Assembly: GCA_027483445.1 (NCBI GenBank)
Contig: JAIXUS010000068.1
Location: forward strand, 1 to 64,000
DNA length: 64,000 nucleotides
DNA from: Bacteroidota bacterium
Lineage (GTDB): Bacteria > Bacteroidota > Bacteroidia > M30B66
Direction of reading: 5' to 3'
Every line of letters begins with the position of its first letter. Position 1 is the first letter of the stretch. This document shows positions 2,308 to 60,672 of this stretch, piece by piece. The notes under the pieces are model-generated. The model saw only the letters and a program-made list of their open reading frames with translations, was not told the DNA's origin and made no database searches. The position numbers and the translations under genes were made by a program.

Positions 2308-2312
2308 GAGGC

Positions 2313-4335: not shown

Positions 4336-4496
4336 AGCGGATTCAAAGATGCTGAAATTGCCTGCTTCTGCGAATTCTGTTTTTCAACAATACCGTGCTG
4401 AAACTTGGCCTGGCTGATTGATGAAGAATTGAGAATTTACTTAGTTTCGTTCGCTTGAACCCGCTCATCTACTTTTTGCTACCTAAGTCTTAATCC

Positions 4497-5069: not shown

Positions 5070-5087
5070 GGTTTATCTCCAATACTG

Positions 5088-5274: not shown

Positions 5275-5384
5275 TCTTAAGGCCAGCTGAATTTCTTCTG
5301 CACCAAAATATCCAAACAGACCTCTTGCTTACCTTGAGTAAGGCGAGTAAAAACAATGGGGTTCAGTGGAAAAGCTATGTTCTA

Positions 5385-10373: not shown

Positions 10374-10379
10374 ATGATT

Positions 10380-12343: not shown

Positions 12344-12367
12344 TTGATTGTACTGATGCGTGATGTT

Positions 12368-15718: not shown

Positions 15719-15734
15719 ACTCACGCACGAGCCC

Positions 15735-38721: not shown

Positions 38722-40119
38722 ATGAAAATTGCGAGAAGCACCGTTGTTTTGACGGCGCTTCTTTTTTTGCTCCTCAGCAGTTGCAGGCCTTACTATCTTC
38801 GGCAGCAGACCTTTTTGCGATTGGTTTCGGAGGAGCGTTATGCCGAAGCAGAGGCCGAGTTGTCATCCTCCCGAAGGGCAAAAAAGAAAGAGCGCCATCG
38901 TTTATTGTTCCTGTTTAATCGCGGATATGTAGCGTTTCAGCAGGGAAAATGGAAAGAGAGTGCGTATTGGTTTATGCAGGCCGACCGTATGGTTGAAGAA
39001 TACCGCAAGCAATTGGGCTACGAGGCGCTTTCGATTTTGGTCAATCCCGGTGTAAAGCCATATAAAGCAGAAGATTTTGAAGTGGTGATGATGCACTACT
39101 TTACAACACTGGCCTTCCTGAAAGAGCGCAACTTTGAATCGGCACTGGTGGAGTGCAGAAGAATGAACCTGAGTTTGCAGGACATGCACTTTGCCGACAG
39201 CAAAAAGCCCCGTTACAAAAACGATGCGTTCGGCCATCTCCTTATGGGACTGTGCTATGAAGCATACGGCGATGTGAACAATGCCTTCATCGCTTACCGA
39301 AATGCGGTTGAGGTTTATCGAAGCGATTATTCATCGTTTTTTGGCTTGCCTGTGCCTCAGCAGCTCAAGCACGATTTGGTTCGTACCGCTTTGCGGAATG
39401 GCTTTAACGATGAGGCCCGGCGCTGGTCAGACACCTTAGGGGTCCCTGTTCCTGAACGAAACACGGCCATGCCTGATGCCGAACTGATTGTTTTGTGGCA
39501 AAATGGCCTCGGGCCGGTAAAGGAACAGTGGTCGATCGATTTCACCATAGTGCAACAGGCGGGACAGCTCTTTTTTAACAATGCGGGAATGGGCTTGAGC
39601 TTCGCCTTCCCGGTTTCGTCGGTGAGTAGCTCCGACCTGAATAATCTTCAGGCCTTACGGGTGTTTCGGGTGGCCTTCCCGCGGTATGTTAGCCGACGGC
39701 CGGTTTTTCAAAGGGCCGAGGTGAGCACGGGATCCTTCAAAACGCGTGTAGAATCGGTGCAACCGATCGATCAAATCGCCTTTAAAAGTCTGGAAGACCG
39801 ATTTGCCCGGGAGATGAGTAATGCCATCCTCCGCTTTGCGGTAAAGAAAGCCACCGAATACGCCATCCGAAAGGAGAATAAAGACGCCGGAGCTCTTGTT
39901 GGTATAGCCAATGCCATTACAGAGCAAGCAGATACCCGCAACTGGCAAACGTTACCTTACGAAATTGGCTATGCACGTGTGCCTTTAAAGGTGGGCGAAA
40001 ACAAGGTGGTTTTTCGGGCCGAATCGGCAGGCCGCAGGGCTCCACATGTTGATACGCTTTGCATAGAGGCCCAAAAAGGACGAACATACTTTGAGGTCAT
40101 TAGCACAATTCGGCCTTAA
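38722..40119 (+). CDS. COG3014-like lipoprotein with TPR-like repeats
   Basis: The 465-residue product has a lipobox ending at Cys21 (LLSSC). The N-terminal half has helical repeats resembling TPRs (RLLFLFNRGYVAFQQGKWKES and LLMGLCYEAYGDVNNAFIAY). The C-terminal half is mixed alpha/beta with no catalytic motif. It resembles the COG3014 group, which I recall occurring beside lpoB in other bacteria. A role in assisting PBP activation is an inference from context. Its stop codon interlocks with that of the opposing adhesin gene in the palindrome TTAA at 40116-40119. Confidence 0.65.
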   Translation: MKIARSTVVLTALLFLLLSSCRPYYLRQQTFLRLVSEERYAEAEAELSSSRRAKKKERHRLLFLFNRGYVAFQQGKWKESAYWFMQADRMVEEYRKQLGYEALSILVNPGVKPYKAEDFEVVMMHYFTTLAFLKERNFESALVECRRMNLSLQDMHFADSKKPRYKNDAFGHLLMGLCYEAYGDVNNAFIAYRNAVEVYRSDYSSFFGLPVPQQLKHDLVRTALRNGFNDEARRWSDTLGVPVPERNTAMPDAELIVLWQNGLGPVKEQWSIDFTIVQQAGQLFFNNAGMGLSFAFPVSSVSSSDLNNLQALRVFRVAFPRYVSRRPVFQRAEVSTGSFKTRVESVQPIDQIAFKSLEDRFAREMSNAILRFAVKKATEYAIRKENKDAGALVGIANAITEQADTRNWQTLPYEIGYARVPLKVGENKVVFRAESAGRRAPHVDTLCIEAQKGRTYFEVISTIRP

Positions 40120-43100
40120 CGCCACAAGGTGAAATACCCTTTTCTGGGTTGACTTTCGTCTTCTATTTCAATCAGGTAGTAGTACGTGCTTTCGGGCAAA
40201 TCGGCACCGATTACCAAGCCGGCATTGGCTTTTCCGTCCCAGTTGTTTTGGTAATTGATGCTGTCGTAGACCTTATTTCCCCAGCGATCGAATACGCGGA
40301 GCGAAATCCTCTTTCCGGCGGGGCTTTGAATTACAAAGCGATCGAATAGGCCATCTTCATTGGGCGAGAACCCCTCCGGAATGAACACTTCCGGTTCTTT
40401 AGCCTTGCAATCGGGGTCGTCGGGACTTAAAAATGTGATCACGACCAAATCGGAGTCGGAGCACAGGCCGTTGGTAACGGTCCATTCGAGGAAATAATTT
40501 CCGGTGCTCTGCGCCAGTGCGCCAGTGTTTTGAAATTGAGGAACAAGGAAGGAAATCCCACCGTTGAGGCTGCTCCACGTTCCACTTCCAACCAAAGGAA
40601 TTTCGGCCTGAAGGAATAAGGTATCATTTAAGCAGCCAATAAGGTCGGGCCCAGCTTCGGCGTTGGGTTGCTCAAGGAAGTTAAGCGTTAGCGTATCGGC
40701 GGTAGAGCAAAAGTCGTTGCTAACCTCCCAAATCAGGCGGCTAATTCCGGGTTCAATTCTTACGATGTTTGATGCCGGGTCGGAAGGGTCGGAGAGGGTT
40801 CCGGAGCCGCTAAGCAGCGACCATTGTCCGTTTGCGTCGATGGGTGTTTCGGCCTCCAGCTGGGTTTCTATCCCGCAAATTACCTTATCGGGCCCGGCAT
40901 TCACCACTTGTGGAAAGTTGGCTTTTTGTAAAATGAGCGTATCCGCGCTGGGGCATTCGCTGTTGATTACCGAATAACTAAGTACAATTTCGCCTTCTTC
41001 CATGTTGCTCAGCGTAATCTCTGAGGCCTGCAAGCTGCTTAAATCGGCATTTCCGGCCAGCAGAGCCCATTGCCCGTTTTCGGGGCTCGAGCTCAGTAAA
41101 ACGGTGTCGTCGCACACCACTCCATTTTCATTAAAAATGAGCGCAGTGTCACTCTGTATAAGCCGTGTAATCGAAATGGTATCGCTCAGCGTTGCACACA
41201 CGCCGTTGCTCAGGCTTAGTTGTATTTGCGCCTGTCCGGCGGATGGCAATTCGAGCAGGCTATTGAGACTTTGTGGGCTGTTGAGGATGGCATTTCCGGA
41301 AACAACAGTCCATAGCGGGTTGGCAAAAGTGCTGGCAATGGGCGAAAGCAGGAACTCGTTGCCGCAAATGGAGGTATCGTTGCCGGCAAAAGGAGTTTCA
41401 AAAGGCAACCAAAGCACCACCTGTGCGGTGTCGGTGCTACTGCATGCCTCGTTGCTCAAGGTGTAGGCCACAAGCAAGGTGTCGTTTTCCAGTGCTGAAA
41501 GCGTGGCGCTGTTTCCTTGAGTTTGGCTCAGGCTTCCGTTCCCGCTTATCAGTGCCCATGTGGGTTCGCCCGAAGCTGTCGTGTTTCCTTGCAGAAGAAT
41601 AGACGATGCGCAGGACTCGAGATCGTTTCCGGCATTGGCCGGACCGGGCGACTCCAGCCGTTCAACAATCAACTGGTCTACTGTTGAGGGGCAAGGGCCA
41701 TTCGATACGGTGTACAGCAAAAAAGTAAGGCCGGTTTGGAGGTTGCTGAGGGTGGTTTGGGCTGCGTTTGGGCTGACTAAAGTTCCGGTGCCACTCAATA
41801 GCGACCAGTTGCCCGAGCCAATGATTGGAGCGGTGGCATTCAGTTGTATGCTGGAAAGGCAGGTAACGACATCGGCTCCGGCATTGGCGGGCGAGGGGGG
41901 CAAAAAACGCTCAACAATAAGCGTATCGGTCGAAACCGGGCAGTTTCCATTGAGGGTGGTCCAAATAAGTCGGTTTTCTCCGGGGCCAAGGTTGTTCAGT
42001 TGGCTGGTTGGGCTTTGCGGAGAGTTTAGCGTTCCACCACCGCTGATAATCGACCAAATACCGTTGCCGCTGGTTGGCGCTGTGGCATAAAGGGAAATGG
42101 CATCGCTGCATATTGCGGTGTCGAGTCCGGCGTTGGCCGGTGATGGCGGTATTTCTCGAATCAGGCTTACCTGGTCGGAAGAGACCGGGCATGGCCCATT
42201 GCTGATGGTCCATCGAAACACATTAGCACCTGGGGCCAGATTAGAAACTGTTGTTGAGGCGGCTCCAGCGTTGCCGAAACTGCCCGCTCCGCTAATTACC
42301 GACCATGCTCCTGTTCCAACTAGCGGCACATTGCCAATTAGCTGAGCATCGGGTGCGCATACCACCTGATCGACGCCGGCTGAGGCTGTGCTTGGAGTTA
42401 AGAAGCGTTCCAACTGAACATCGTCGAAACTCACACACGATCCATTGCTTACCGTCCAGCGCAAAACAGTAATTCCGGCAGAGAGGCCACTAATGCTGGA
42501 GTTGGGTAGAGTAGGGGCAGAGAGGGTTCCGTTATCGGAGAGGATGGTCCACAATCCACTTCCGGCCGAAGGCGCCGAAGCGCTCAAGGTAGCCGTTCCG
42601 GCGCAAATTTGTTGATCCGGGCCTGCAGCGGCATTGGTCGGGTTTGCATCAACAACGATGAGTAACGTATCGGAGCTGCTGGCACAAACGCCGTTGCTCA
42701 CCGTCCAACGCAGCTGGTTTATTCCGCTGCTTAGGGCACTCACACTTGTGCTTGCCAGGTTGGGATTTGCCAGGGTTCCCGATCCGCTAATCACACTCCA
42801 AAACCCGGTTCCTACAGGCGGCGGTTGGGCGTTCAGCAAGGCTGAGGTTGCACAGGTTTGTTGGTCGGGCCCGGCTACCGCCGGTGATGGCTGTTCGAAG
42901 CGCACAATGCTTATCTGGTCGCTTGCGGGCGGACATTGAGCATTGGAAACCGTCCATTGAAAAACTGAAGTACCAATGCCCAGGTTGCTTACTTGCGTTG
43001 TGGGCGAATTGGGGTTCGACAGGGTTCCGCTTCCCGAAACAAGCACCCAGGTTCCGGCATTGCCACTGCCCGGTGCATTGGCCAACAGTGTTGCTGATGG

Positions 43101-46100
43101 GCTGCATACTTGCTGGTCGGGCCCTGCATTGGCCTGTGGTGTGGCCAGAATGGTTAGCGTGATCTCATCCTGACTTGGCAAACAAACGCCATTGCTGATG
43201 GTCCAGCGCAAGGTTACAAGTCCGGCGGAGAGGCCAGAAACACTCGTGTTTGGCAGAGCCGGATTACTGATGGTTGCACTCCCTGTAATTACACTCCATG
43301 TTCCTGAGCCCACAATTGGGGTATTGGCGTTAAGCGTAAAACTGTTGGCACAAATGCTGGCATCGGGACCGGCCTGCGCCTGGCTTGGTGGTGCAAAAGA
43401 TATGATGCTTACCTCATCGGTGCTTGCCTGACAAAACCCGTTGGTGGTGGTCCAGCGGAAGACGTTGAGCCCGGCGGCCAGGTTGCTCACCGTAGTTCCC
43501 GGTTGTGCGGGGGTTCCAAATGTGCCGCTCCCCGAAACCACCGTCCATTGTCCGCTCCCTATCAGTGGAGTGTTGGCAAGCAAAGTTGCGCTGTTTCCGC
43601 ATACTTGCTGGTCGAGACCGGCGTTGGCTTGCGTTGGCGGCGATTGTACGGTAATCGTGAGCTCGTCTTGTGAGGGAGCACAACTTCCATTGGTAATGGT
43701 CCACCGAAGAATGTTTTGCCCCTGACTCAGTCCGGTTACTGCGCTGTTTGGGCTTCCTGAGTTGGAGAAGGTGGCAGAGCCCGCAATTACCGACCACTGA
43801 CCAATCCCAACAATGGGTGTATTGGCGTTTAAGGAGGCGTTGCTGTTGCAGATGGTTTGGTCGGGGCCTGCCTGTGCCGTGGTTGGTGCGTTAATTACGT
43901 TGATAGACACTTCATCGCTCACTGCGGGGCACGAGCCTGCACTTACCGTCCAACGAAGTATGGTTTGTCCATTTGCCAACCCGGAAACACTGCTTGTAGC
44001 CGAATTGGGGTTGGCCAAGGTGGCCGAACCAGAAACCACCGACCAGGTGCCATTGTTGGGTGGACTTGCATTAAGGGTTGTGGTGTTGCCGCAAATTTGT
44101 TGGTCGGACCCGGCATTCACGGCGGTTGGCGGAGCCTGAACGGTAATTTCAACAACATCGCTTACCGAAGGACAAACGCCGCTTGTAACCGTCCATTGGA
44201 ATTGATTGAGCCCGGGGCTGAGTCCACTCACCGTACTTTGGGGGTTTGAGGCTGCCGCAAAAGTGCCCGTTCCTGAAATTACAGTCCAAAGGCCTGTTCC
44301 TGTAAAGTTGCTTTGGGCGTTTAGGCTTGCATTTGTGGCACAAATGGTTTGGTCGCTACCGGCATTGGCCGGACCGGGAGCTTGTGAAACGGTGATTTCA
44401 ACTTCATCAGCGGCTGTTCCGCAAGCTCCGGCGTCGATGGTCCATCGAAAAACATTTGAACCCGCACTAAGGCCGGCGACAGCGGTAGTAGCGTTGGTTG
44501 GATTGGCAAATGTACCGGAGCCTTCAACAACCGTCCATAATCCGGCACCGGCCGGGCTGGCAGAGAGCACCGCACTAACCGAACACACTTCCTGGTCGGG
44601 ACCGGCCGATGGGCTAAGCGGATTGCTTGCTACTTGTATGCTAATGTCATCAGCCGAAGGCGCACAAACCCCGTTGCTAATGGTCCAGCGTAAAATGTTG
44701 AGTCCGGGGCTCAAGCCTGAAACGCTGCTGTTGGGCTGGTTTGCGTTGGCGAAGATGGCAGTTCCGCTCACTACAGTCCATTGGCCGGAGCCGATTGCCG
44801 GAGTGTTTGCGGCGAGTTGTGTTGTGGTGCTGCAGATGTTTTGGTCGAGTCCAGCAGTGGCGGCTGTAGGCTGATCTTGTACCTGAATTACGACCTCATC
44901 GAATACGCTTCCGCAAGCCCCGTCGGGAACCGTCCAGCGGAGGGTTATGCTGCCCGCCGATAAGCCAGAAACCGTAGTGTTGGCGAGGGTTGGATTGGTG
45001 ATGGCTGCCGTTCCGCTTTGAACGCTCCATACTCCATTGGTTGCCGGTGTTGCCGCAAGCTGAGTTTGTGAGGAGCAGATGGTTTGGTCGGGCCCGGCGA
45101 CGGCATTTGCAGACGAGGCCTGAACGAGTACGGTGATTTCATCAGCCGAAGGCGGACAAACCCCATTGCTTACCGTCCAAACGAGCGTATTTGAACCTAC
45201 CGAAAGGCCCGAAACGCTGCTGTTGGCTTGTGTTGGATTGGCGAAAACCGCCGAACCATTTTGCACCGACCAGGTGCCTGTGCCAACGATTGGCGGTGTT
45301 GCGGCCAGTGTGGTTACTCCGCCGCAGATGGTTTGATCGTTTCCGGCAATGGCGGGCGATGGTGTTTGGTCAACAACAATGGTTACTTCGTCGAAGGCAT
45401 CGCCACAAGCGCCGGCGTTGATGGTCCAACGGAACACGTTTACGCCCGGCAAAAGTCCCGAGACAGAAGTGTTGGCTTGGGCCGGATTACCCAAAGTGCC
45501 GCCGCCCTGAATCACGCTCCAACTGCCTCCATTTGAGGCGTTTGCTGAGAGTTGGGTGCTGCTTCCGCAGATGGTTTGGTCGGGCCCGGCCTCCGGGTTA
45601 ACCGGGTTTCCACTAACAAAAAGGGTGAGCTCATCGAATGAGGGTGTGCAATTGCCGTTGCTGATCGTCCACCGAAGAATGTTGTTTCCAACACTCAATC
45701 CACTCACGGTGGTGTTGTACAGGGCCGGATTGGCAAAGGTGGCGGTTCCGGAAATCACGCTCCAAAGTCCGTTACCGCTGGTAGCCTGGTTTGCGTTCAG
45801 TTGAGCTGCTGTGCTGCAAAGGTTTTGGTCGGGGCCTGCATTGGCCGTTGTTGGCGGTGTTTGAACGCTTATGATGACATCATCGCTTACTTCACCACAA
45901 ACGCCATTGGGAATGGTCCAGCGTAAAATGGTTGTTCCTTCAGGCAAGCCGCTTACTTCGGTATTGGCGAGTGCGGGATTTTGCAGGTTGGCGCTTCCGC
46001 TAATTACCGACCATAACCCTCCCGGAGAAGGGAGCGCGGAAAGCTGTGTGCTGGAGGTGCAGATGCTTTGGTCGGTACCGGCATTTGCTGTTAGATTGGT

Positions 46101-47405: not shown

Positions 47406-47486
47406 AATAAGGCTTGAACAGGCCAACCGTAATAGGATTGCCATCAAAAATAGCCAAACAAGGCTAATTTAATCTCAGAAACTAGT

Positions 47487-49940
47487 TTATCGGTATTGCA
47501 CCACCCTGATTTCGGTACGGCGATTCACCTGATGTTCTTTGTCGGGGCATTTAACGCCGTTTTTGCAGCGGTTGAGGATTTGGGTTTCGCCGTATCCTTT
47601 GCCGCTAACCCTTTCGCTTTCGATGCCTTGACTGATCAGGTATGAAACGGCCACGATGGCTCTTCCTTCGGAAAGCTTCAGGTTGTCCTGGTCGGAGCCT
47701 TGGCTATCGGTATGTGAGCCCAGTTCGATGATCATGGTGGGATTTTCCTTCATTACCTGCACAACGTAGTCGAGCACAAGCTTGGCTTCGGGGCGAATGT
47801 CGGTTTTGTTCAGGTCGTAAAGGATGCCTTCAAGGGCGATAACTCCACCTTCGGTGAGTTTGAGCAGGCGAAGGTTTTTGTTGGAGATTTTACCATCGGC
47901 TGTAAGCGTTGTTTTGCTTTGTGAGGTGGAGAAATACCCAACCCGGCTGGCGGCAATGTTTACTACGTCGCCTTCTTTGAGCACGGTTTCATACTTTCCG
48001 GTTTCATCGGTAACGACTTCAAACTTTGAGTTAGTCTTTGTGTTTTCGATCGAGAGCAAGGCTTCGCTTACGGGACTGTTTGTTTGTTGATCGGTAACGG
48101 TAATGGCGATTGGTGTTCCTTTTTTAGGGGCAATTCCGGTTGAAAGGTTGAGGAACACATCTTCGTCCTTATTGGTACAAGGCGCTTTGAATTTACGCTT
48201 TGCAACGGGCAAGCCTTTGGCTTCGGCAATTACTTCGTATTCGCGACACGGTTGAAGCAGGAATTTAACGCCACCTTTAGCGTCGGTTTGTTCGAGTCCA
48301 ACCGGTTGTTCGCCGGCGGTAACGTCGTTGAGCGATACCACGGCACCCTCGAGGTCTTTGTTCACGAAGCGGTCGAAGAAGCGCACATAAAGCTTGGGTT
48401 TTTTGGCATAAAGGCTAACATCGCGCGAGGCTTTCGGGTCGCAGTTGATTTGCACTTCTTCTTCGCTTTCAGGGTAACCTTCGGCTTTTACGCGGAATGT
48501 GTACTTTTTACAGGGCTGTAGAATAAGGCTAGACACCCCGCTGTTGTTGGTACGCAGGGTTCGGATGCTTTTTCCATCGAGTAGCACTTCCACTCTTGCG
48601 TTTTCGATGGGTTTGATTTCATCGCGATCCATCACTTTTATATACGATGGGGCGGGCGAATAGGTAAATCGGTAAATATCGTCGTGGTCGAGCCCACCGT
48701 CGCGGTTGGAGCCAAAGAATCCGGAGCGGCCATCGTTTCGAACAATCAGGCCAAAATCATCGCCGGTGCTATTGATGGGTGAACCGATGTTTACTGGTGT
48801 TTCTCCGGGTTCGCTCAGGGTAAATTTGAAGATATCAAGGCCGCCAAGGCCGCCCCAGCCATTAGACGCAAAATAAAGCAAGCTGTCTTTCCAAACGAAG
48901 GGGAACATTTCGTTGCCTTCGGTATTTACAGCAGGGCCGAGATTTTCGGGTTTCGACCAGGTGTTTCCGTTGCGGGTCGATTTGTAAATGTCGGTACCAC
49001 CAAGCCCTCCGGGCATGTCGCTCACAAAGTAAAGCGTATTGCCATCGGCCGTAAAGGCCGGATGACCACTCGAATATTCGGTGCTGTTGTGTTCAAACGG
49101 ACGAACATCGGTAAACTTGCCACTTTCGGCGTTTGCCAGATAGAGATTCAGTCGGTTTACATGGTCGCTTGATCGTTTCACCTTGCCTTTGTGGTAGGCG
49201 TTTCGGGTGAATGCCATCAATTTACCATCGGCGCTCATAGCAGCGGGGCCTTCGTGCAGTTTGGTGTTTATCTCCTTGCCCAAATTGATGGGACTGGTAG
49301 GCGTTGAATCGTTGGTTAGAGGGATTTTCCAGAGGTCGAGCCAACGTTTGTTGTTCCAGGGCGCTTTGGAGCGCGCCATGCCTTCGTCGAAACCGTTCGA
49401 TACCACCAGCAGGTATTGCTGAGGGCCTTCGTTGTAGAAGGCGGGGGCGAAATCGGAATGTGCTGAGTTAAACCCCAGCTTTTCGAGTCGGTAACCCGAC
49501 GATTCGGCAAACAGGTCGGAGTAATTGTTGATGCTATTGATAAACCGGCTGCCCCGCTTGTCGGTGGCCATCTTCTCGTCGTACTTTTTGAAGTTTTGGC
49601 GGGCTTCTTCTTTTTTACCGAGGCTTTCCTGCGCTTGGGCTAATTTTAAGAAGTCGTCGTTGTTGGCCTGACCGGAGTCGACCAGCTTTTGGAGGAACTC
49701 AGCGGCTTTGGCGTGGTTGTTTAGCTTCACCGCGGCATCAGCCATGCGTCGGAGCACCGCCATATTGGCCGGAGCCTTTCGGTGCACATGTTCGTAAAGT
49801 TCGAGCGCCTCAACATAGGCAAAGTTTTCAAAAAGTCGGTTGGCGCGACGTTCGGCAGGCGATTGGGCAAAGATCGATCCTGCACTCCACAGAATTAGCG
49901 TCAGCAGCAGTGCGGCGAGACTAACAGTTCGGTTTAGCAT
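47487..49940 (-). CDS. OmpA-family protein with TPR, PD40 propeller and carboxypeptidase-regulatory domains
   Basis: After a signal peptide (to about residue 25, SIFAQ) come TPR-like helices (about 28-130), a PD40/WD40-like propeller (about 150-430; AFTADGNTLYFVSDMPGGLGGTDIY and similar), and three carboxypeptidase-regulatory-like beta domains (about 440-690). The C-terminal OmpA domain (about 700-817) has the peptidoglycan-binding LGSHTDSQGSDQDNLKLSEGRA. This architecture is found in OmpA partners of PorP/SprF in T9SS loci. It likely anchors the outer-membrane assembly to the cell wall. It begins 4 bp after the PorP/SprF stop. Confidence 0.85.
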   Translation of the reverse strand: MLNRTVSLAALLLTLILWSAGSIFAQSPAERRANRLFENFAYVEALELYEHVHRKAPANMAVLRRMADAAVKLNNHAKAAEFLQKLVDSGQANNDDFLKLAQAQESLGKKEEARQNFKKYDEKMATDKRGSRFINSINNYSDLFAESSGYRLEKLGFNSAHSDFAPAFYNEGPQQYLLVVSNGFDEGMARSKAPWNNKRWLDLWKIPLTNDSTPTSPINLGKEINTKLHEGPAAMSADGKLMAFTRNAYHKGKVKRSSDHVNRLNLYLANAESGKFTDVRPFEHNSTEYSSGHPAFTADGNTLYFVSDMPGGLGGTDIYKSTRNGNTWSKPENLGPAVNTEGNEMFPFVWKDSLLYFASNGWGGLGGLDIFKFTLSEPGETPVNIGSPINSTGDDFGLIVRNDGRSGFFGSNRDGGLDHDDIYRFTYSPAPSYIKVMDRDEIKPIENARVEVLLDGKSIRTLRTNNSGVSSLILQPCKKYTFRVKAEGYPESEEEVQINCDPKASRDVSLYAKKPKLYVRFFDRFVNKDLEGAVVSLNDVTAGEQPVGLEQTDAKGGVKFLLQPCREYEVIAEAKGLPVAKRKFKAPCTNKDEDVFLNLSTGIAPKKGTPIAITVTDQQTNSPVSEALLSIENTKTNSKFEVVTDETGKYETVLKEGDVVNIAASRVGYFSTSQSKTTLTADGKISNKNLRLLKLTEGGVIALEGILYDLNKTDIRPEAKLVLDYVVQVMKENPTMIIELGSHTDSQGSDQDNLKLSEGRAIVAVSYLISQGIESERVSGKGYGETQILNRCKNGVKCPDKEHQVNRRTEIRVVQYR

Positions 49941-49944
49941 GGGA

Positions 49945-50874
49945 TCAGAAATAACGGGGAGTAATGGTTTTGTTTTTATTGAATCCGAAGTCGCAGCGGA
50001 GCATCACTTCGTGCGATCCGCCTACATTACCGGCCAGTCCACTTACGGTTTGGTCGTAAGCATAACCCACGCGGAAGTTTCGGTTGAGCTGAATTTCAAC
50101 CATGCCAACTAAGGCGTCGCCGGTGCGGTACGAAAGGCCAAAGCCGAGAATGTCGAGCCAGTAAACGTTGGCGTTAATGTCGGCCTGCAAGGGTGCGCCA
50201 TTCACGTGTTTAATCATTATCGATGGCTTTAAGCGGAATGTAGGCGAGAGTTTGAACACATAGCCTCCCGAGAGGTTGAAATGCGTGCGAAGTCGAGCAA
50301 CATACACAGTGTTGAATTGCTCTTCGCTGAGGATGTTGTTTCTCAGGTGTGGAATACCCAGGCCAACGAACCATTTGTCGGAATACCAAAATGCGCCTGC
50401 CCCGAAGTTAAGGTTCCACAACGAGAGGTTGTTTCCGAAGGCCGCATCGAATGTGTTGTCTTGAGAAAGTTGAATGTCGGTGAGGTTTACGCTAAAGTTT
50501 CTCACGCCAGCCTGTAAGCCGAAGGCTAAGCGCGATTTGCTAAACTTGAGGTGGTAGGCATACATCGCCATGAAGCCATTGGTTTGCATTTCGCCCATAC
50601 GGTCGTTCACAAAGCTAAGTCCGACGCCTACATGTTCGTTTCTGAGTGGGGCGTGGCATGTGAAGGTGCCTGTTTGAGGCGCACCGGGGAAATTAACCCA
50701 CTGGCGGCGAAACAAGCCCACGGCCTGCATTTGGTCTAACGAACCGGCATAGGCCGGGTTGAGGGCCAGCGGGTTAAACATATACATGCTGTACATGGGG
50801 TCTTGCTGTGCCCGGGCAGCCGAAGCGAGTGCCAAAAGGGCCAGAAATACGAGGGTTTTCACGTCGCGCTGCAT
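49945..50874 (-). CDS. Type IX secretion system PorP/SprF family membrane protein
   Basis: This is an outer-membrane barrel of the PorP/SprF family (TIGR03519 type). Diagnostic blocks are QQDPMYSMYMFNPLALNPAYAGS after the signal peptide, FRRQWVNFPGAPQT, and HVGVGLSFVNDRMG. SprF-like proteins are known to be needed for secretion of partner proteins with type B C-terminal domains. It lies directly between the two adhesin genes. I prefer the ATG at 50874 (MQRDVKTLVF), which gives a clean signal peptide. The ATG at 50904 would overlap the adhesin stop and add ten residues. Confidence 0.9.
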   Translation of the reverse strand: MQRDVKTLVFLALLALASAARAQQDPMYSMYMFNPLALNPAYAGSLDQMQAVGLFRRQWVNFPGAPQTGTFTCHAPLRNEHVGVGLSFVNDRMGEMQTNGFMAMYAYHLKFSKSRLAFGLQAGVRNFSVNLTDIQLSQDNTFDAAFGNNLSLWNLNFGAGAFWYSDKWFVGLGIPHLRNNILSEEQFNTVYVARLRTHFNLSGGYVFKLSPTFRLKPSIMIKHVNGAPLQADINANVYWLDILGFGLSYRTGDALVGMVEIQLNRNFRVGYAYDQTVSGLAGNVGGSHEVMLRCDFGFNKNKTITPRYF

Positions 50875-50894
50875 GGTGCGATGAAAAGAGGTGA

Positions 50895-53800
50895 TTATCT
50901 CCATAGTGTGAGGTATCCTTTACGGGGTTCGCTTTCCCCTTCGATGGTGATGAGATAGTAATAGGTGCTTTCGGGCAGCTGCTCTCCGGCGAGAATGGTT
51001 CCCTGCGAGGCGGTACCATCCCAGTTATTGAGATAATTTTCGCTTTGATAAACGAGGTTACCCCAACGGTTGTACACTTCGATTCGAATGCGTTTGCCTT
51101 CAGGGTTCGAAATCACAAACAAATCGTGAATGCCATCGCCGTTTGGCGAGAAGCCTTCAGGAATGAAGATTTCGGGCTCCTCGCAAGCCGATGAGTCGGA
51201 TGGAAGAATGGTGAGTGTGAGCGTGTCGGTAGCGGCACAGGCCCCATTGAGCACATTCACAACAAAAGTGTTTGCCCCAATGCTTAGGTTGTTCAGGCCC
51301 ACCTGCGGACCTTCGGGGTTTTCTACAGTTCCGTTGCCACTCAACACCGTCCAGCTTACCTCACTGCCCTCCGGTATGCCGGCAATGGCCACCGAAACCG
51401 GTAGATTTTCTTCACAAATTGAGGTGTCGGTCGGAATGGTTAGGGCAATTGGTTCAAAACTTAACACAACCAGTGTATCGCTGCTTACGCAAGGGCCATC
51501 GGTGATTGTCCATACAAAGGTGTTATTGCCCGGTGAGAGTCCATTTACAGCGGTCGACGGCTGATTGGGGTTTCCAATTTCTCCGCTTCCCAAGGCTAAG
51601 CTCCAGGCTCCTGCGCCGGCGGAAGGTAAATTACCCAGCAGTTCGGTGCTACTGCCACATACCGATTGGTCTTCGCCGGCAAAGGCCGGAGTGCCGGGCA
51701 GTGTAACATCAACCGTTACGGTATCGCTTCGGGTTATTCCCGAAACAGTGATCGACCAAACAAAGGTGTTTTCGCCTGCACTAAGGTTGCTCACTGCTGT
51801 ATTGGCCGCGCTGGAATCGGCCAGTTCGCCGCTTCCGGCAATCACCGTCCAGACGCCCGAGCCATCCGCCGGTACGGCGCTACCCTGCAATACCACAGAA
51901 GTACCGCAAAGGACTTGATCGTCGCCGGCATCTACCTCAAATTGAGGCATTTCAACCAAGATGATTATGGTGTCGGGGGCGCAAATTTCCGGCAACGGAT
52001 CGCCGGTATCGCACACCAGTACAACCACCGTATCGGTGCCTGTGAAGCCGTCGTTCGGTGTGTAGGTGAAATTGCCATCCTCGCCCAAAACAAAGGTTCC
52101 GTTCGAAGGAGGAACAATCACCGAATCGGCCAGAAGCTGGGTGGAGTCGGGGTCGAAGTCGTTGGTTAAGAAGTTACCTTCCAGGGTTAATCCTGGCGCT
52201 ATGTTGAACGTGTCGTTGAGGATCACCGGAGGGTCATTCACCGGAAGCACAACGATAATCAGGGTGTCGGTTGCACATTCGGGTGGCAGAGGAAGGCCAT
52301 TGTCGCAAACATTAATCAACACAGTATCAGTGCCGTTGAAGTTTTCATTGGGTGTATAAACGAAGCTACCATCGGGGTTGATGACAATGCTGCCATTTTG
52401 AGGGCCTGAAATCGGGGTGGTGTCGGCGCTCAGTTCGGTTCCTTCCGGGTCATTGTCGCCACCATTGAGGATATTTCCACTGAGTGGTTCATCTTCGTTG
52501 GTAGAGAGCGAGTCGAGGAGAAGCACCGGCGGGTCGTTGAGGGAATCGTTTACGGTAAAGAAGAGCGTATCGCTTTCGCATTCGGGCGGCAGAGGCAGGC
52601 CGGAGTCACAAACAAGAACAACCACGGTATCTAGACCAATAAATCCGGAATTCGGAATGTAGGTAAAGCTGCCATCGGGATTCAGTGTGAAGCTTCCGTT
52701 TGCTGCATCAACGAGCACCGAATCAACCGTTAGCGCAGTGCTATCGGGGTCGAAGTCGTTATCGAGCAAATTACCGGTAAGGGTATCTAACTCCGTAAGG
52801 GCGTATGTTTGGCTTTCGGTAATTGGTGGGTCGTTCACCGGGCTCACTGTGATCACAAGGGTATCTAAGCCGCAAAGTGGAGGCAGGGGAATGTCTTGAT
52901 CACAAATGTTGATGACCACAGTGTCAACGCCATTGAAGTTCTCGTTTGGCGTGTAAACAAAGCTTCCGTCGGGGTTAATGGTGATGCTTCCGTTTTGTGG
53001 ACCAGCAGCCGCAATGGTATCTGCAACAAGAGTGGTTCCATCGGGGTCAGAATCGTCGGTGATGACATTGCCGCTTACCGGTATGTCTTCGAGTGTGCTC
53101 AACGTGTCGTTGCTGATTACAGGCGGGTCGTTTACTGTATCGTTTACGGTAATGAACAAAGTGTCGAGGGAACATTCGGGGGGCAGCGGGAAACCAGAGT
53201 CGCAAATGAGTACCACAATGGTGTCTAGCCCACTAAAGCCGGGATTGGGCACGTAGTTAAAGCTTCCGTCGGGGTTTAGGGTAAAGCTTCCGCCGTTAGG
53301 CTCTACCACTACGCTATCGGCGGTAATGGCGGTACTATCAATGTCGAAATCGTTGTCGAGTAAATTTCCGCTAAGGGTATCACCGGGCGATGCGTTGTAC
53401 GACTGGCTGTTGGCAACCGGCGGGTCGTTTACGGGTGTTATGGTGATGACCAAGGTGTCGAGTCCGCAAAGCGGTGGAAGCGGAATCCCCTGGTCGCAAA
53501 TTTCTACGACCACGGTATCGGTTCCGTAGAAGTGCTCATTGGGCGTGTAGGTGAAGCTTCCGTCCGGTTGAATAACGATGCTTCCGTTCTGCGGGCCTTG
53601 TTGTGGTATGGTATCAACAACCAGCACTGTGCTGTCGGGGTCTACATCGCCATTGATGAAGTTACCGGTTAATACAGAATCTTCGGGCGTGCTGAGGCTG
53701 TCGTTGACCAACACCGGTGGCTGGTTACATGCGAAAGTAATCGTCACCAGGTCGGTCGAGTCGGGGCACTGACCACCAAGAACGGTCCACTGGAATACGT

Positions 53801-56800
53801 TTTCCCCTTCGCTCAGTCCGCTAATTGCAGTGTTCGCATCGGAGCTGTCGGCCAGCGTAGCCCCACCTGAAATTACGGTCCAGAAACCGGTTCCGGTTGT
53901 AGGAGCCAAGGCGCTCAGTGAGGTGTCTGTTCCGCAAACAATGAGGTCGTTACCAGCAAATGCGGTGTCGCCCCGGCTAATGGTAATCTGGTCGCTTTCG
54001 GCCGGACAAACGCCGTTGGTCACTCTCCATTCAAACACGTTGTTTCCAACATCGAGGTTGCTTACTGTGGTTGTGGCGGATGACGGATCGGCAATGCTGG
54101 CGTTTCCACCAATGAGCACCCAGGTTCCGGTTCCTACCGAAGGCGTGTTGGCGCTGAGGTTAACACTATTGTCGCAGGTGAAAAAGTCGCTACCGGCAAA
54201 GGCGGTGTCTGGCGGTGTAGTTCTGAAGATGGTAACCGTATCGCTGGTCTGAGGGCAGCTTCCGTTGGGCGAAACGGTCCATTGGAATACATTCAAGCCA
54301 AAAGCCAGCCCGCTTACTTGGGTTCCTGCACTATCGGGATTGGTAATGAGGCCAGAGCCCGAAACCACACTCCATACACCGGAGGCATTTACTAAAGATG
54401 CAGCCAAAAGGCTTGCGGTATCAGCACAAATCTGTTGGTCGGCACCGGCGTTCGCCACCTCAGGAAGGGTGTCGCGGGTGAGTACTACATCGTCAAAACT
54501 GGCAGTACATGAGCCATTGCTAATCGTCCACCGCAGTGTTGTTATGCCTGCCGGCAGATTGCTGATTGTGGTGCCTGGATTTGCGGCATCGTCCAAAACC
54601 CCTCCACCATTGAAAATGGTCCAGATGCCTGTTCCCACTACAGGTAAATTACCCGCCAGTGTGGCTGTAGAGTCGCAAAGGCTTTGGTCTACACCCGCCA
54701 GAGCGGTGCTTGGTTCTTCGTCGCGTGTGATGCTAACTTGATCAAAGACCACGCATGAGCCATTGGTGATTGTCCATTGTAAGACGGTAATTCCTGGTCC
54801 AACATTACTCAAGCCGGAGTTTGTTGAGGTGCTGTCGCTCAAGGTTGCAGTACCGCTTACAATCGTCCACAGCCCAGTGCCAATGTTTGGCGTAGATGCT
54901 GAAAGTGTAGTGCTGTCGGCGCAGATGCTTTGGTCGGCTCCTGCATTGGGAGCGATAGGGTTCTTGCTTACATTGATGCTTACCGAATCGGTGCTTGGAG
55001 GGCAGGCGCCATTGCTCACAGTCCACACCAGGATGTTTTCACCAGGGCTCAAAGCCGAAGCCACCGCATTGGGGTCGGATGTGCTGCTAAAGCTGCCAGA
55101 GCCGGTAGCCACCGACCAAGCGCCGGTTCCAACAGTTGGAAGAGCGGCTTCTAGGCCAACCGAAGTACCACAAATTGCAGTATCTATTCCGGCAACGGCT
55201 ATTGAAGGAGCTGCGGTAATGGTAACCGTAACAGTATCGCTGGTTTGCGGGCATGATCCGGTATTCACGGTCCACACAAAGCTATTCGTGCCCAGTCCTA
55301 TTCCTGTTACTCCGGTTTGAGGGTCGGAGGCATCGCTAAAGTTGCCGCTGCCCGAGAGTAAGCTCCATTGGCCGTTTCCGGGGAATGGGTCATCAGCCTG
55401 CAAGGCTACAGCCGCACCAACGCAAAATGAAAGATCGGGGCCGGCATTGGCCACCACTGTGGCTGAGTCGCGGAGCACCACCACCTGATCGGTTGACGGA
55501 GGACAAACTCCACTGGTAATGTTCCACTGGAACACGTTTACGCCAAAGCCCACATTGCTCACAAGGGTATTGGGCTGGGAAGCATTGGCAAATACACCAC
55601 TACCGGTAACAATAGTCCATTGGCCAACACCAAACAAGGGGTTGTTGCCCGCAAGGCTCAAAGTATCGCCGCAGATTTGTGCATCTGCACCCGCATCGGC
55701 TGTGGTTGGGGGCGTACTGATGGTTAACACAACCTGATCGCTTGCTGGATCGCAGCCCGGAGAAGAAACAATCCAGCTGAGAACCGTTTGTCCGGGGATT
55801 AGTCCGGTAATGCTTGTATTGGGCGAATTAACATCGGCTATTGTACCCGAACCCGACACAAGGGCCCATTGGCCGGTTCCTGTAACCGGGTTTACGGCAC
55901 TTAGGCTTGCGTTGTCGGCACAGAGGTTTTGGTCGCTTCCCGCATCAGCCGGGCTTGGCGCTGCACTCACGGTAATGCTCAATTGATCGCTGCTCGATGG
56001 GCAACTGCCGCTACTGATGGTCCACTCCAACACGAGTGTTCCGGCACTTGTGGTGCTCAGCGTAGCATTGGCGTCGGCTGTATTGCTAAGGCTTCCTGTC
56101 CCGGAAATCAGGCTCCAGCTTCCCGTTCCGATGGTTGGTGTATTGGCTTGCAACACAATACTGTTCCCAGCACATATCACGCTGTCGGGGCCGGCATTGG
56201 CTGCATCGGGAGGGAGGCTGCGGGTAATGCTTACCTGATCGAATGCCACACAGGCACCACTGGTAACCGTCCATCTAAATACATTTACGCCCGGCGAAAG
56301 ACCACTTACTGCGGTATTCGGGTCGCTGCTGCCGGCAAATGTTCCGTTTCCGCTGATTACACTCCAGGCGCCGGTTCCTACAGTAACAGGTTGGGCGGAA
56401 AGGTTCGCCGTAGTGGCACACACATCCTGGTCGGGTCCGGCGTCGGGGGTTACTGGATTGGGGCTTACGTTGATGGCTACCGTGTCGCTACTCGGGGCGC
56501 AGCTACCATTGCTGATGGTCCACACCAGCAGGTTTTGCCCGGTTTGTAGGCCCGCCACCTGATCGTCGGGGTTTGATGGGTCGCCAAACACTGCGGTGCC
56601 TTGTGCTACCGACCAGGCGCCGGTTCCAATTAGCGGTGTATTGGCATCAAGCAAGGCTGTTGCGGAACAGATGGTTTGGTTGGGACCGGCCGCAGCTGCG
56701 GATGGCGGTTCGCTCCTCAATACGCTTACCTCATCGCTTGCGGTGCAGGTTCCATTGGTAACGGTCCAACGGTACTCATTCAAGCCTACGCCAATGTTAC

Positions 56801-59800
56801 TTACAGCGGTGTTAGGACTTCCCGCGTTAGCGAAAACCCCGCTACCACTCACAACCGTCCATGTTCCAGTTCCCACGGCAGGCGATAGGGCCGATAAACT
56901 CGTCGATGTTGCGCAGATGCTTTGGTCGACACCGGCATCGGGAGTTCCTACAGACTCATCAACAACGATGGTTAATGTATCGCGGCTAGGAGGACATGAG
57001 CCGCTGCTGATTGTCCAAATAAAGGTGTTTTGCCCAACGCTTAGTCCGCTCACTGTGGTTGTTGCATTCGAGGCGTTTGCCGGGCTTCCGGCACCAAGGC
57101 CAGTTGACCAGCTACCGACACCTGCAAGAGGCGTATTGGCAGAAATGGATGTGGTATTTGCGCAAATCTGTTGGTTTGGCCCTACAACCGAAGTGCTGGG
57201 CACGGCATCGCGGGTAATGGTAACCTGAGATGTTGACGGCGGACAAGTGCCGTTGGTAATCGTCCATTGAAACACATTGGCCCCAATGGCCAGGTTACTC
57301 ACGGTGGTGTTGGCTGTATTGGGTGCACTAAAGGTTCCACTGCCGGAAATAAGGCTCCAGGCTCCTGTTCCAACACTCGGTACATTGGCCGAAAGTGTGG
57401 CTGAGCTGGCACAGACCGACTGTGGGTTTCCGGCTACAGAAACATCAGGCAGCGCAAAACGGGTAATGGTTACCTGGTCGCTCACGGGCGGACAAGTACC
57501 GTTGGTTACCGTCCAAGTAAATACGTTGGCGCCGATTCCAAGGCCGGTTACGCCGCTATTGCTTTGGGTTGGGTTGGTAATGGTTCCGCTTCCGCTGGTC
57601 AATGTCCAAACTCCGCTCCCAGCCGTTGGGGCCGTAGCATTTAGTGTGGCCGTTGTTGCGCAGAGCGACTGATCAGGGCCTGCGTTTGCGGCTGCAGGCG
57701 GGGCAAACCGGGTGATGGTTACTTGGTCGGTGCTTGGCGGACAAACGCCGTTGCTAATGGTCCATTGAAACACATTTGCGCCCACCGAGAGACCGGTAAC
57801 AGTGGCTCCGGGGAGCGTGTTGTTGCTAAACACCCCTGAGCCGGAAACAACGGTCCACGCTCCGGTTCCAATTACAGGGCTGTTGGCCGCGAGTGTAGCC
57901 GTTGCAAGGCAAACTTGCTGATCGGGGCCGGCATTGGCTGCATCGGGCGGTGGAATTCGGGTTACTTCTACAGTATCGGAAGAAACGCACTGCCCACCGT
58001 TGGTGATGGTCCATGCAAACCGACTGGTGCCTACCGCGATGCCACTTACAGCAGTGTTGGCTTGTGTAGGATTCGCAATTACACCTGTTCCGCTAACCAA
58101 GGACCAAACACCGGTTCCGACATTCGGGTTATTCCCGGCCAGGTTGGTGTTTTCTTCGCATATACTTTGGTTTGCACCAGCGGCGGCTGTTGTAGGTAAG
58201 GGGATAGCAATTGCAGCCACATTTGCGGTAACGGTGCATTGTGCATTATCGCGGACCAATACACTGTAGGTGCCGCCTTGGTTGAGTGTGGCGGGATTTC
58301 CGGTTTGGGTACTGTTGTCTGGAGCTGTCCAGGTGTATACGGCATTGTTCAGTCCGGCGCTACTGGTTGCATTCACGGTAACCGGGGTAGATGAGCCGGC
58401 ACAAAAAGTAGGGTCGGGAGGTGTAAATCCAGAAACAGCCAAATCGCCAAACGAGCAGCAATTGATCGAGGCAATGCTTACAAAGTTGTCGGTAAAGTCG
58501 CATTCCGGCAGGGTACTAATCGGGAAGGTTAAGGGTGTACTTTGGCTTCCATCATCGTTGAGTACAATAAAGAGCGTGAACGGTTTAGGAAGCGGAGCAA
58601 TGTCGAGCTGAACAGGAATCAACTCACTGCCTCCGGGCAAAATTTGGGTGTTGGTTTGCACCGGGCCGCCTATCGGCGAGATGGGAATAGCCGCTCCTGT
58701 AAACGGGTTTCCGGCATAAAAGCGAATGGGGTAGCCGGGGTCTGCCGGCCCACCGGTAGAGCTCACATTTAAGCCAAGGTTGTAGACGTCGGAGCCGTCG
58801 CAGGCGGATGACACAACGCTCAAATCGAGGTTTATGGCCGGATACACCGGACAGCCATCCTGTGTAAGGAAGGTAGATTGCGCTAAGAAGGAGTTAAACG
58901 GGCGGTTTTCGCTGCAGGTAGCGAACGGGCAGGTAACTGTACTGAGTAAAATTTGATGCCCCTGCTGCTGAATCGGTACCGAAAGATTCGTGTTAATATT
59001 TACATTAAAGTAACTGTATTGATTCCAGACCGATCGGCAAGGAGCCCAGGCTTGTCCGGTGGCACCAAAAACATTTACGGTTCCAAGCGAGATATTGGCG
59101 GTTTCGCAAGTAACGCAAATTTCGGCTTGCCCATCACCATCAATATCGGCCACAACGGGCATTTCGGCTCCGGTGCCCGACGAGCAAGGGTTGCTACCAA
59201 TCGTTACCGGTGCTGTTCCGCTACCATCGATGATGCGTAGGGTTGACTCGTCGCGGTAGACCAATTCCTGTGTTCCATCCTGATTAAAGTCGAACATGGT
59301 AATGCCCGTAAATCCCGAAGCATCGGTGGTGGTAAGCGTCCACTTGTTCTGTAATGTTGAGGTTCCGTTGTATTCCAGAGCGTATACCCGTTGCGACCGG
59401 GTAACCCCAATTTCCGGCTGGCAGTCTTTGTCCATGTCGCCCACAAAGGGTACCCCAATCCAGTTGCCCCCGGTGTTGGGCAGATTGATGGAGGCCACCA
59501 ATGAAGGGCTGCCATTGCCGGGATTCCAAACATAGAGCTGCCCAGTACTGCCTTGTGAGGCTACTACAACATCGAGACTTCCATCGAGGTCAATGTCGGC
59601 TAAGGAGGTGTAACCATCGCCAAAACCGGGAAGCACGATAGGCGTCATGCTGTTTCCTGCGGTGCCGTTGGGGTTTGTAATATTTACCTGAAATACGGTG
59701 TTTCCGCAGGCCAGCTCAAGCCCAGGGTCGTTGGTTAAGTCGGCGGCAATTGGGTTGGCAAGGTCGCCAAAGGCCTGGCGGGTCATCACCGCCATAGAGG

Positions 59801-60536
59801 CCCCGGAGCCTCCTTCTGCGAGCTTCCGCCCGTTAAGGGCATTGAAAATCTGGTTGTATACATATACCTCCGGAATGCCGTCGTTGTTGAAGTCGGCAAT
59901 CCCCAGCGAACTTCCAAACCTGGCCGTTCCGGGGTAGCCGTATTGTAAATCGGATTGCCATTTAAGAACTCCGGTATGCTCGTAACAAAATAGGTATCGC
60001 CGTTGGCCAACGCCATTATTGGGGTGATCGATGGTGGCAATAATGATTTCACCAAATCCATCGTCATCCACATCGGCAATCGCTACGGGGTTTGGTCCCA
60101 CCCAAGCCATAAATGGGGTGTTAATGGCGCCTTCCGTGTCGCCGGTTGCTCCATTCATGATTACCAGATCTCGAGCCCGCCTTGGGTCTGAGGCGACAAG
60201 CCCGCTGCCCGACATGATAATCACATTGGGCACCCCGTCATTGTCGATGTCGGCCACCAACGGGGTTTGATAAATGGGCACGGCATCCTGACTAACCCAT
60301 TGCGATTGAAAATTGAGGGCTCCACCTGGAGTTGAAAACTCACAGCTGGGTGTACAAAGTAACGTTTGGTCGTCGCATGGGCAATCCGGATCAAACACAT
60401 CAACCAGTTGATCGCCATCGTCATCAATACCATTGTCGCAGATTTCCTGCGCAAATGTGGTCATCCCGAAAAGCATCAGGAAAGCCAGCATCAACAGTCG
60501 TTTCAGGTTGTTTTTAGGTAGATATTTTTTCGTCAT
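50895..60536 (-). CDS. Giant T9SS type B adhesin with FG-GAP propeller, PKD-like and cadherin-like repeats
   Basis: From the ATG at 60536 the product has 3213 residues. A signal peptide (MLFGMTTFAQ) is followed by an EICDNGIDDDGDQ motif and an FG-GAP/VCBS-type beta propeller (to about residue 560) with calcium-loop repeats such as DIDNDGVPN, DVDDDGFGE and DFNNDGIPE. After a linker region come 18 PKD-like repeats (about 795-2280), six cadherin-like repeats of about 98 residues (NPDGSFTYTPN and VNDPP motifs, to about 2870) and three more PKD-like repeats. The TIGR04131-type sorting domain ends KGYLTLWR. It is probably a T9SS-secreted surface adhesin like SprB in concept, though not its ortholog. 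The start at 60566 is less likely. Confidence 0.9.
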   Translation of the reverse strand: MTKKYLPKNNLKRLLMLAFLMLFGMTTFAQEICDNGIDDDGDQLVDVFDPDCPCDDQTLLCTPSCEFSTPGGALNFQSQWVSQDAVPIYQTPLVADIDNDGVPNVIIMSGSGLVASDPRRARDLVIMNGATGDTEGAINTPFMAWVGPNPVAIADVDDDGFGEIIIATIDHPNNGVGQRRYLFCYEHTGVLKWQSDLQYGYPGTARFGSSLGIADFNNDGIPEVYVYNQIFNALNGRKLAEGGSGASMAVMTRQAFGDLANPIAADLTNDPGLELACGNTVFQVNITNPNGTAGNSMTPIVLPGFGDGYTSLADIDLDGSLDVVVASQGSTGQLYVWNPGNGSPSLVASINLPNTGGNWIGVPFVGDMDKDCQPEIGVTRSQRVYALEYNGTSTLQNKWTLTTTDASGFTGITMFDFNQDGTQELVYRDESTLRIIDGSGTAPVTIGSNPCSSGTGAEMPVVADIDGDGQAEICVTCETANISLGTVNVFGATGQAWAPCRSVWNQYSYFNVNINTNLSVPIQQQGHQILLSTVTCPFATCSENRPFNSFLAQSTFLTQDGCPVYPAINLDLSVVSSACDGSDVYNLGLNVSSTGGPADPGYPIRFYAGNPFTGAAIPISPIGGPVQTNTQILPGGSELIPVQLDIAPLPKPFTLFIVLNDDGSQSTPLTFPISTLPECDFTDNFVSIASINCCSFGDLAVSGFTPPDPTFCAGSSTPVTVNATSSAGLNNAVYTWTAPDNSTQTGNPATLNQGGTYSVLVRDNAQCTVTANVAAIAIPLPTTAAAGANQSICEENTNLAGNNPNVGTGVWSLVSGTGVIANPTQANTAVSGIAVGTSRFAWTITNGGQCVSSDTVEVTRIPPPDAANAGPDQQVCLATATLAANSPVIGTGAWTVVSGSGVFSNNTLPGATVTGLSVGANVFQWTISNGVCPPSTDQVTITRFAPPAAANAGPDQSLCATTATLNATAPTAGSGVWTLTSGSGTITNPTQSNSGVTGLGIGANVFTWTVTNGTCPPVSDQVTITRFALPDVSVAGNPQSVCASSATLSANVPSVGTGAWSLISGSGTFSAPNTANTTVSNLAIGANVFQWTITNGTCPPSTSQVTITRDAVPSTSVVGPNQQICANTTSISANTPLAGVGSWSTGLGAGSPANASNATTTVSGLSVGQNTFIWTISSGSCPPSRDTLTIVVDESVGTPDAGVDQSICATSTSLSALSPAVGTGTWTVVSGSGVFANAGSPNTAVSNIGVGLNEYRWTVTNGTCTASDEVSVLRSEPPSAAAAGPNQTICSATALLDANTPLIGTGAWSVAQGTAVFGDPSNPDDQVAGLQTGQNLLVWTISNGSCAPSSDTVAINVSPNPVTPDAGPDQDVCATTANLSAQPVTVGTGAWSVISGNGTFAGSSDPNTAVSGLSPGVNVFRWTVTSGACVAFDQVSITRSLPPDAANAGPDSVICAGNSIVLQANTPTIGTGSWSLISGTGSLSNTADANATLSTTSAGTLVLEWTISSGSCPSSSDQLSITVSAAPSPADAGSDQNLCADNASLSAVNPVTGTGQWALVSGSGTIADVNSPNTSITGLIPGQTVLSWIVSSPGCDPASDQVVLTISTPPTTADAGADAQICGDTLSLAGNNPLFGVGQWTIVTGSGVFANASQPNTLVSNVGFGVNVFQWNITSGVCPPSTDQVVVLRDSATVVANAGPDLSFCVGAAVALQADDPFPGNGQWSLLSGSGNFSDASDPQTGVTGIGLGTNSFVWTVNTGSCPQTSDTVTVTITAAPSIAVAGIDTAICGTSVGLEAALPTVGTGAWSVATGSGSFSSTSDPNAVASALSPGENILVWTVSNGACPPSTDSVSINVSKNPIAPNAGADQSICADSTTLSASTPNIGTGLWTIVSGTATLSDSTSTNSGLSNVGPGITVLQWTITNGSCVVFDQVSITRDEEPSTALAGVDQSLCDSTATLAGNLPVVGTGIWTIFNGGGVLDDAANPGTTISNLPAGITTLRWTISNGSCTASFDDVVLTRDTLPEVANAGADQQICADTASLLAASLVNASGVWSVVSGSGLITNPDSAGTQVSGLAFGLNVFQWTVSPNGSCPQTSDTVTIFRTTPPDTAFAGSDFFTCDNSVNLSANTPSVGTGTWVLIGGNASIADPSSATTTVSNLDVGNNVFEWRVTNGVCPAESDQITISRGDTAFAGNDLIVCGTDTSLSALAPTTGTGFWTVISGGATLADSSDANTAISGLSEGENVFQWTVLGGQCPDSTDLVTITFACNQPPVLVNDSLSTPEDSVLTGNFINGDVDPDSTVLVVDTIPQQGPQNGSIVIQPDGSFTYTPNEHFYGTDTVVVEICDQGIPLPPLCGLDTLVITITPVNDPPVANSQSYNASPGDTLSGNLLDNDFDIDSTAITADSVVVEPNGGSFTLNPDGSFNYVPNPGFSGLDTIVVLICDSGFPLPPECSLDTLFITVNDTVNDPPVISNDTLSTLEDIPVSGNVITDDSDPDGTTLVADTIAAAGPQNGSITINPDGSFVYTPNENFNGVDTVVINICDQDIPLPPLCGLDTLVITVSPVNDPPITESQTYALTELDTLTGNLLDNDFDPDSTALTVDSVLVDAANGSFTLNPDGSFTYIPNSGFIGLDTVVVLVCDSGLPLPPECESDTLFFTVNDSLNDPPVLLLDSLSTNEDEPLSGNILNGGDNDPEGTELSADTTPISGPQNGSIVINPDGSFVYTPNENFNGTDTVLINVCDNGLPLPPECATDTLIIVVLPVNDPPVILNDTFNIAPGLTLEGNFLTNDFDPDSTQLLADSVIVPPSNGTFVLGEDGNFTYTPNDGFTGTDTVVVLVCDTGDPLPEICAPDTIIILVEMPQFEVDAGDDQVLCGTSVVLQGSAVPADGSGVWTVIAGSGELADSSAANTAVSNLSAGENTFVWSITVSGITRSDTVTVDVTLPGTPAFAGEDQSVCGSSTELLGNLPSAGAGAWSLALGSGEIGNPNQPSTAVNGLSPGNNTFVWTITDGPCVSSDTLVVLSFEPIALTIPTDTSICEENLPVSVAIAGIPEGSEVSWTVLSGNGTVENPEGPQVGLNNLSIGANTFVVNVLNGACAATDTLTLTILPSDSSACEEPEIFIPEGFSPNGDGIHDLFVISNPEGKRIRIEVYNRWGNLVYQSENYLNNWDGTASQGTILAGEQLPESTYYYLITIEGESEPRKGYLTLWR
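51190..58195 (-). repeat. In-frame PKD-like and cadherin-like domain arrays
   Basis: Eighteen PKD-like repeats lie at about 53720-58195, six cadherin-like repeats at about 51950-53715 and three PKD-like repeats at about 51190-51940. The cadherin-like repeats alternate in two types (PQNGSI type and NGSFTLNPDGSF type), making three two-domain units of about 590 bp. Confidence 0.85.
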
Positions 60537-60611: not shown

Positions 60612-60664
60612 GGGAGTTATTCCGTCTTTTTGTCAATACTCCAATGTTGATAACCATACAAAGG

Positions 60665-60672
60665 TATTTTTG
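60665..60672 (+). promoter_or_regulatory. -7 promoter element of the small membrane gene
   Basis: TATTTTTG is an exact TAnnTTTG match, 20 bp before the ATG at 60693. Confidence 0.45.

Follow-up and report, generated by a model that had tools for sequence, protein, structure and literature searches.

Organization of the locus

The window analysed here, a stretch of 64,000 nucleotides at the start of a contig from a Bacteroidota bacterium, contains four consecutive genes on one strand (Table 1). Open reading frames and family matches at 40116-60536 confirm the first-pass annotation, which had described four genes on one strand with short gaps or an overlap. In reading direction the genes encode a giant protein with a type B C-terminal domain (CTD) of the type IX secretion system (T9SS), here called cargo 1, a barrel of the PorP/SprF family, a PorE-like protein and a second giant type B protein, cargo 2. 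Cargo 1 ends where the PorP/SprF gene begins, and the latter has two ATGs available: the one at 50904 gives an overlap of 10 bp, and the other lies ten codons further in, at 50874. The next two junctions are gaps of 4 bp (PorP to PorE-like) and 81 bp (PorE-like to cargo 2). Upstream of cargo 1, at a distance of 514 bp, an LptD gene is found on the same strand. Downstream, an LpoB-like gene and a gene for a TPR protein are convergent with the four genes, and the TPR gene overlaps the stop of cargo 2 by 4 bp.

Table 1. Features of the four-gene locus, with positions in the window.
Feature	Position	Strand	Description
Cargo 1	50895-60536	-	3213 aa from ATG 60536; signal peptide, FG-GAP, Ig/PKD-like and cadherin-like/tandem-95 repeats, type B CTD
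Type B CTD of cargo 1	50898-51164	-	TIGR04131, CHU_C
PorP/SprF-family barrel (predicted carrier and outer-membrane anchor)	49945-50874	-	309 aa; PF11751, TIGR03519, AlphaFold2
Carrier C-terminal PRYF, residues 306-309	49948-49959	-	Proposed wall-docking (PorE-binding) tail, after the last strand (287-296)
PorE-like periplasmic protein	47487-49940	-	817 aa; TPR, PD40 beta-propeller, CarboxypepD_reg, OmpA; without lipobox
OmpA-like domain of PorE-like protein	47553-47819	-	Asp745/Asn753/Arg760
Cargo 2	40116-47405	-	2429 aa from ATG 47405; signal peptide, two-cysteine Ig/PKD-like repeats, type B CTD
Type B CTD of cargo 2	40119-40382	-	TIGR04131; 65% identity to cargo 1 CTD across the final 100 residues
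TACCTTTG, candidate Bacteroidota -7 element	60659-60666	-	123 bp upstream of cargo 1
TATTTTTG, candidate -7 element in the PorE-like/cargo 2 gap	47445-47452	-	40 bp before cargo 2

Promoter and terminator scans gave nothing above chance, and the -7 pattern, of which Table 1 lists two candidates, is no commoner in the window than chance predicts. A separate promoter for cargo 2 may lie at TATTTTTG; we infer a single transcript for all four genes. No RNA families were found in the region. Elsewhere in the window, positions 14001-16000 have a strong AT skew (0.34), within an ORF (12344-15718) for a DUF4175 protein.

The two cargo proteins

Each cargo carries an apparent signal peptide and a type B CTD of the TIGR04131/CHU_C kind, with a TIGR04131 score above the cut-off. 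Cargo 1 combines N-terminal FG-GAP repeats with six cadherin-like/tandem-95 repeats and Ig/PKD-like repeats of 83 residues, and cargo 2 has 25 motif-detected, two-cysteine Ig/PKD-like repeats of 80-84 residues. Taken over both proteins, the Ig/PKD-like repeats are ~83 residues long and nearly always have two cysteines. Their mean identity is ~41% inside one cargo and 39% between the two, and they therefore represent a common repeat family and no recent copy. Recent repeat expansion was considered and ruled out by the ~41% repeat identity and by a scan of the region, in which DNA tandem repeats are nearly absent. The repeats suggest that the cargoes may act as adhesins.

The carrier barrel and the PorE-like protein

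The product of the second gene is a clear member of PF11751 (265 bits; TIGR03519, 276 bits). Its AlphaFold2 model (pLDDT 85) consists of 14 strands, the last formed by residues 287-296, followed by a free tail of 13 residues; the even number of strands suggests that this tail lies in the periplasm. The nearest solved folds are 8gl6_F and 6h3i_F of the T9SS translocon, a chain that we take to be PorV. A sequence search of the PDB with the barrel returned one spurious match only. The tail was searched for Cys-X-Cys, the motif that couples SprF to the gliding tracks, and none is present; it ends in PRYF.

The 817-residue protein scores 337.6 bits (1e-100) with the PorE model (NCBIfam NF052230, an exception model), under its cut-off of 600 bits, and on sequence it is PorE-like and not PorE itself. 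The best PorE match of the genome, on contig C19, is also below this cut-off (530 bits). All four domains of PorE (TPR, propeller, carboxypeptidase-regulatory-like and OmpA) are present in the PorE-like protein. In its OmpA domain, residues Asp745, Asn753 and Arg760 vary little or not at all, and their spacing equals that of Asp576, Asn584 and Arg591 of Porphyromonas gingivalis PorE, which contact peptidoglycan (PMC7192894). A lipobox was sought in the N-terminus and not found; the signal peptide ends in ...SIFAQ before SP, with no Cys. The lipobox is likewise missing from 74 of 95 operonic PorE-like proteins. Without it, the protein would need a partner to remain at the outer membrane.

Comparison with known type B systems

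A type B cargo depends on a PorP/SprF carrier specific to it, mostly encoded directly downstream (PMC12618676). In the genome of the window (G000), a type B CTD gene lies directly upstream of six of the ten PorP/SprF genes, and the same is true of most PorP-PorE pairs elsewhere, so the linkage of cargo and PorP is not a matter of chance. Flavobacterium johnsoniae has six porP-porE neighbours (PMC9143113) and five operons with a type B cargo, a carrier and a PorE homologue, for which static wall-anchored complexes were proposed; Fjoh_3952 has been reported to be static (PMC12618676). The distinction between mobile and non-mobile complexes had already been put forward in 2022 (PMC9143113). As in Fjoh_3952-Fjoh_3951-Fjoh_3950 and the other operons of that species, cargo, carrier and PorE-like genes are adjacent in our locus: the TIGR04131 cargo lies directly upstream of the PorP/SprF gene, and a PorE-like protein with all four domains is part of the cluster. 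However, in our locus the PorE-like gene is followed by another giant cargo, whose CTD matches that of the first.

The same three kinds of protein are known from P. gingivalis, in which PorE, PorP and PG1035 form a complex; PorE binds the single PorP of this species, and PorP binds the type B protein (PMC9143113). P. gingivalis PorE is a lipoprotein, whereas the PorE-like protein described here has no lipobox, the genes adjoin one another and a second cargo is present. The first three genes are thus a further case of the published cargo/SprF-like/PorE-like module. It is the fourth gene, cargo 2, that is unusual, and it makes the locus a conserved variant of that module.

The first-pass annotation had called the module self-contained. 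This does not hold, as SprA (contig C71), GldJ (C84) and a core PorP with a PorK-like neighbour (C47) are all encoded elsewhere in the genome. Beside GldJ, at the contig end, lies a PorP/SprF fragment (L100, 10107-10583) with two tail cysteines (ECKPKKKRFRTINCPSF), possibly a track-linked carrier.

Conservation of the second cargo

The CTDs of the two cargoes form the third closest of the 666 CTD pairs in their own genome, for which the median identity is 32%. Comparison of gene ends and neighbours indicates that cargo 2 is kept in seven genomes of the family (G000, G001, G003, G004, G006, G007 and G008). In G001, G003 and G006 its N-terminus comes right after the PorE-like gene, and the contig stops there; its 3' end adjoins the same convergent TPR gene in G001, G003, G004, G006 and G007. 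For G008 the assignment is based on a matching CTD. Cargo 2 is cleanly absent from G002, where the convergent gene directly follows the PorE-like gene; it is therefore dispensable to the module. In the tree, the cargo 2 CTDs are one group inside their class (support 87/96). In each of G006, G007 and G008, CTDs of this class number exactly two, with a single PorP of the matching class; the next PorP is 40-43% identical. The two CTDs are less alike in other members (57, 56, 52, 50 and 40% identity).

One carrier of F. johnsoniae took a non-cognate CTD that was 68% identical, but not those at 43% or 26% (PMC12618676). In the case of Fjoh_1677, three orphan type B cargoes more than 44% alike use one carrier (PMC12618676), so that, as proposed here, several cargoes with related CTDs depend on one barrel; however, those genes are unlinked, whereas the two cargoes in our locus flank their carrier. 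The closeness of the CTDs (65%), the conserved position of cargo 2 and the one matching PorP for two CTDs in G006-G008 make it probable, as far as sequences can tell, that both cargoes use the one carrier, as the first-pass annotation had suggested for this PorP/OmpA pair.

Of the 64 PorP-PorE pairs whose neighbourhoods were examined, seven have a giant or type B gene after the PorE-like gene, and four of the seven are this operon. Two further candidates were set aside. The arrangement in G016 (L133) is not the same, cargo 2 there having its own PorP and PorE-like gene; this locus and L124 contain tandem cargo-PorP-PorE triads and cargo-PorP pairs within one cluster. The second cargo of G013 (L156) lies in two frames and its CTD is visibly unlike the upstream one, and it was not counted; the split of this large gene 3' of the PorE-like gene (1212-10759) is possibly a frameshift or an assembly error. 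On contig C24 of G030 (L127 with L212), PorP and PorE-like genes are followed by a type B cargo of ~3000 residues, with none upstream.

Carrier tails and adjacent PorE-like genes

Across 174 PorP/SprF loci, a PorE-like gene is adjacent to 84 of the 86 carriers with a PRYF-type C-terminal end, compared with 16 of the 70 non-core carriers with other ends. In the first set, from which core PorPs were excluded, PR[YFL][FLIY] ends 49 of 63 carriers with a PorE-like gene after them and 2 of the 38 that lack one. The loci of a second set, which were fetched once the rule had been formulated, gave 35 of 37 and 0 of 18, respectively. PorE-adjacent carriers end in PR[YF][FL], and PorE-less carriers mostly end otherwise (L093-L132, L223-L282). 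The C-terminus is NVR[FY]L in all 13 core-type PorPs; this is a description and not a test, as core PorPs were recognised by that end, together with a next gene of PorK size where visible. Upstream of a PorE-less paralogous cargo-PorP pair, an ORF of ~1150 residues is found in four genomes (L094, 2821-6267; L119, 10964-14389; L120, 13772-17254; L121, 15347-18787). In the T9SS literature searched, we found no mention of the PRYF tail and no description of how PorE contacts PorP. The carrier-tail rule is the best new lead from the locus.

Proposed function and alternative explanations

The locus is likely to be a T9SS operon of cargo, carrier and anchor whose products form immobile surface fibres tied to the cell wall. 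The two cargoes would pass through Sec to the periplasm and then leave the cell via the SprA translocon. The PorP/SprF barrel, which corresponds to the PorV shuttle, would use the type B CTDs to pick up the cargoes at the translocon and would then remain in place to anchor them in the outer membrane. The PorE-like protein would bind the barrel from its periplasmic side, and its OmpA domain would bind peptidoglycan. Since this protein would bridge barrel and peptidoglycan, the fibres would be fixed rather than carried on gliding tracks, and immobility of the cargo complexes appears quite likely.

That the cargoes are mobile gliding adhesins of the SprB kind, moved on tracks through the carrier, is very improbable. 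The genome does encode GldJ and SprA, and SprB is likewise a giant type B repeat protein beside a PorP/SprF barrel, SprF. However, SprF needs its Cys-X-Cys tail, which bonds to GldK and couples it to the gliding tracks (PMC12635249), and sprF has no adjacent PorE-like gene (PMC9143113); the reverse is found here on both counts. A gliding-SprF role of the carrier was rejected on its tail, and the comparison with sprB-sprF loci advised in the first-pass annotation is off for these reasons; the right comparison is Fjoh_3952-3951-3950 (PMC12618676). A different objection is that cargo 2 is a mere neighbour with its own promoter, perhaps at the element 40 bp before it, and another carrier such as the PorP on contig C50. 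The CTD of the C50 cargo is ~51% identical to that of cargo 2, which makes the C50 carrier a conceivable partner of cargo 2 in this genome. With 44 type B CTD matches to only 10 PorP/SprF genes in G000, most of the cargoes have to rely on a shared or an unlinked carrier. The CTD pair is only 40-57% identical in other genomes, and the pair at 43% did not cross in F. johnsoniae. Yet cargo 2 is closer to cargo 1 in its CTD, its position is conserved across the family, and G006-G008 retain it with no C50-type PorP found there. We therefore regard this explanation as unlikely, and one carrier for both cargoes as the better reading of the locus.

The meaning of the PRYF tail is harder to judge. It may well be a wall-docking signal by which the carrier docks the PorE-like protein, although we put this somewhat short of an even chance. 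A serious possibility, to be held with similar reserve, is that PRYF is the inherited mark of one PorP lineage or a signal for outer-membrane assembly (BAM). Outer-membrane proteins commonly have an aromatic residue at the C-terminus. In a PorP tree built without the tail (155 rows), tail type and PorE adjacency each change 12 times and cluster, as a lineage mark would. However, the tail end lies ~10 residues beyond the last strand of the model, and PorE-lacking paralogues 50-60% identical to the carrier end in HRIF or QRDF. Independent pairs on the tree run ~5 to 0 in the direction predicted for docking, but the median p is ~0.06, and common ancestry is therefore only partly excluded. If docking is the correct reading, the tail could, more tentatively still, set the fate of type B proteins: PR[YF][FL] would lead to a PorE-like wall anchor and a fixed fibre, Cys-X-Cys to GldK and a gliding adhesin, and other tails to further fates. 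The carrier of this operon would then be of the wall type, with two passengers.

A short tail that predicts a PorE partner makes it testable how Bacteroidota choose between fixing a giant secreted protein to the wall and carrying it on gliding tracks. In a genome with about four type B cargo genes per carrier gene, the two-cargo operon lends itself naturally to asking whether one carrier can load two large cargoes.
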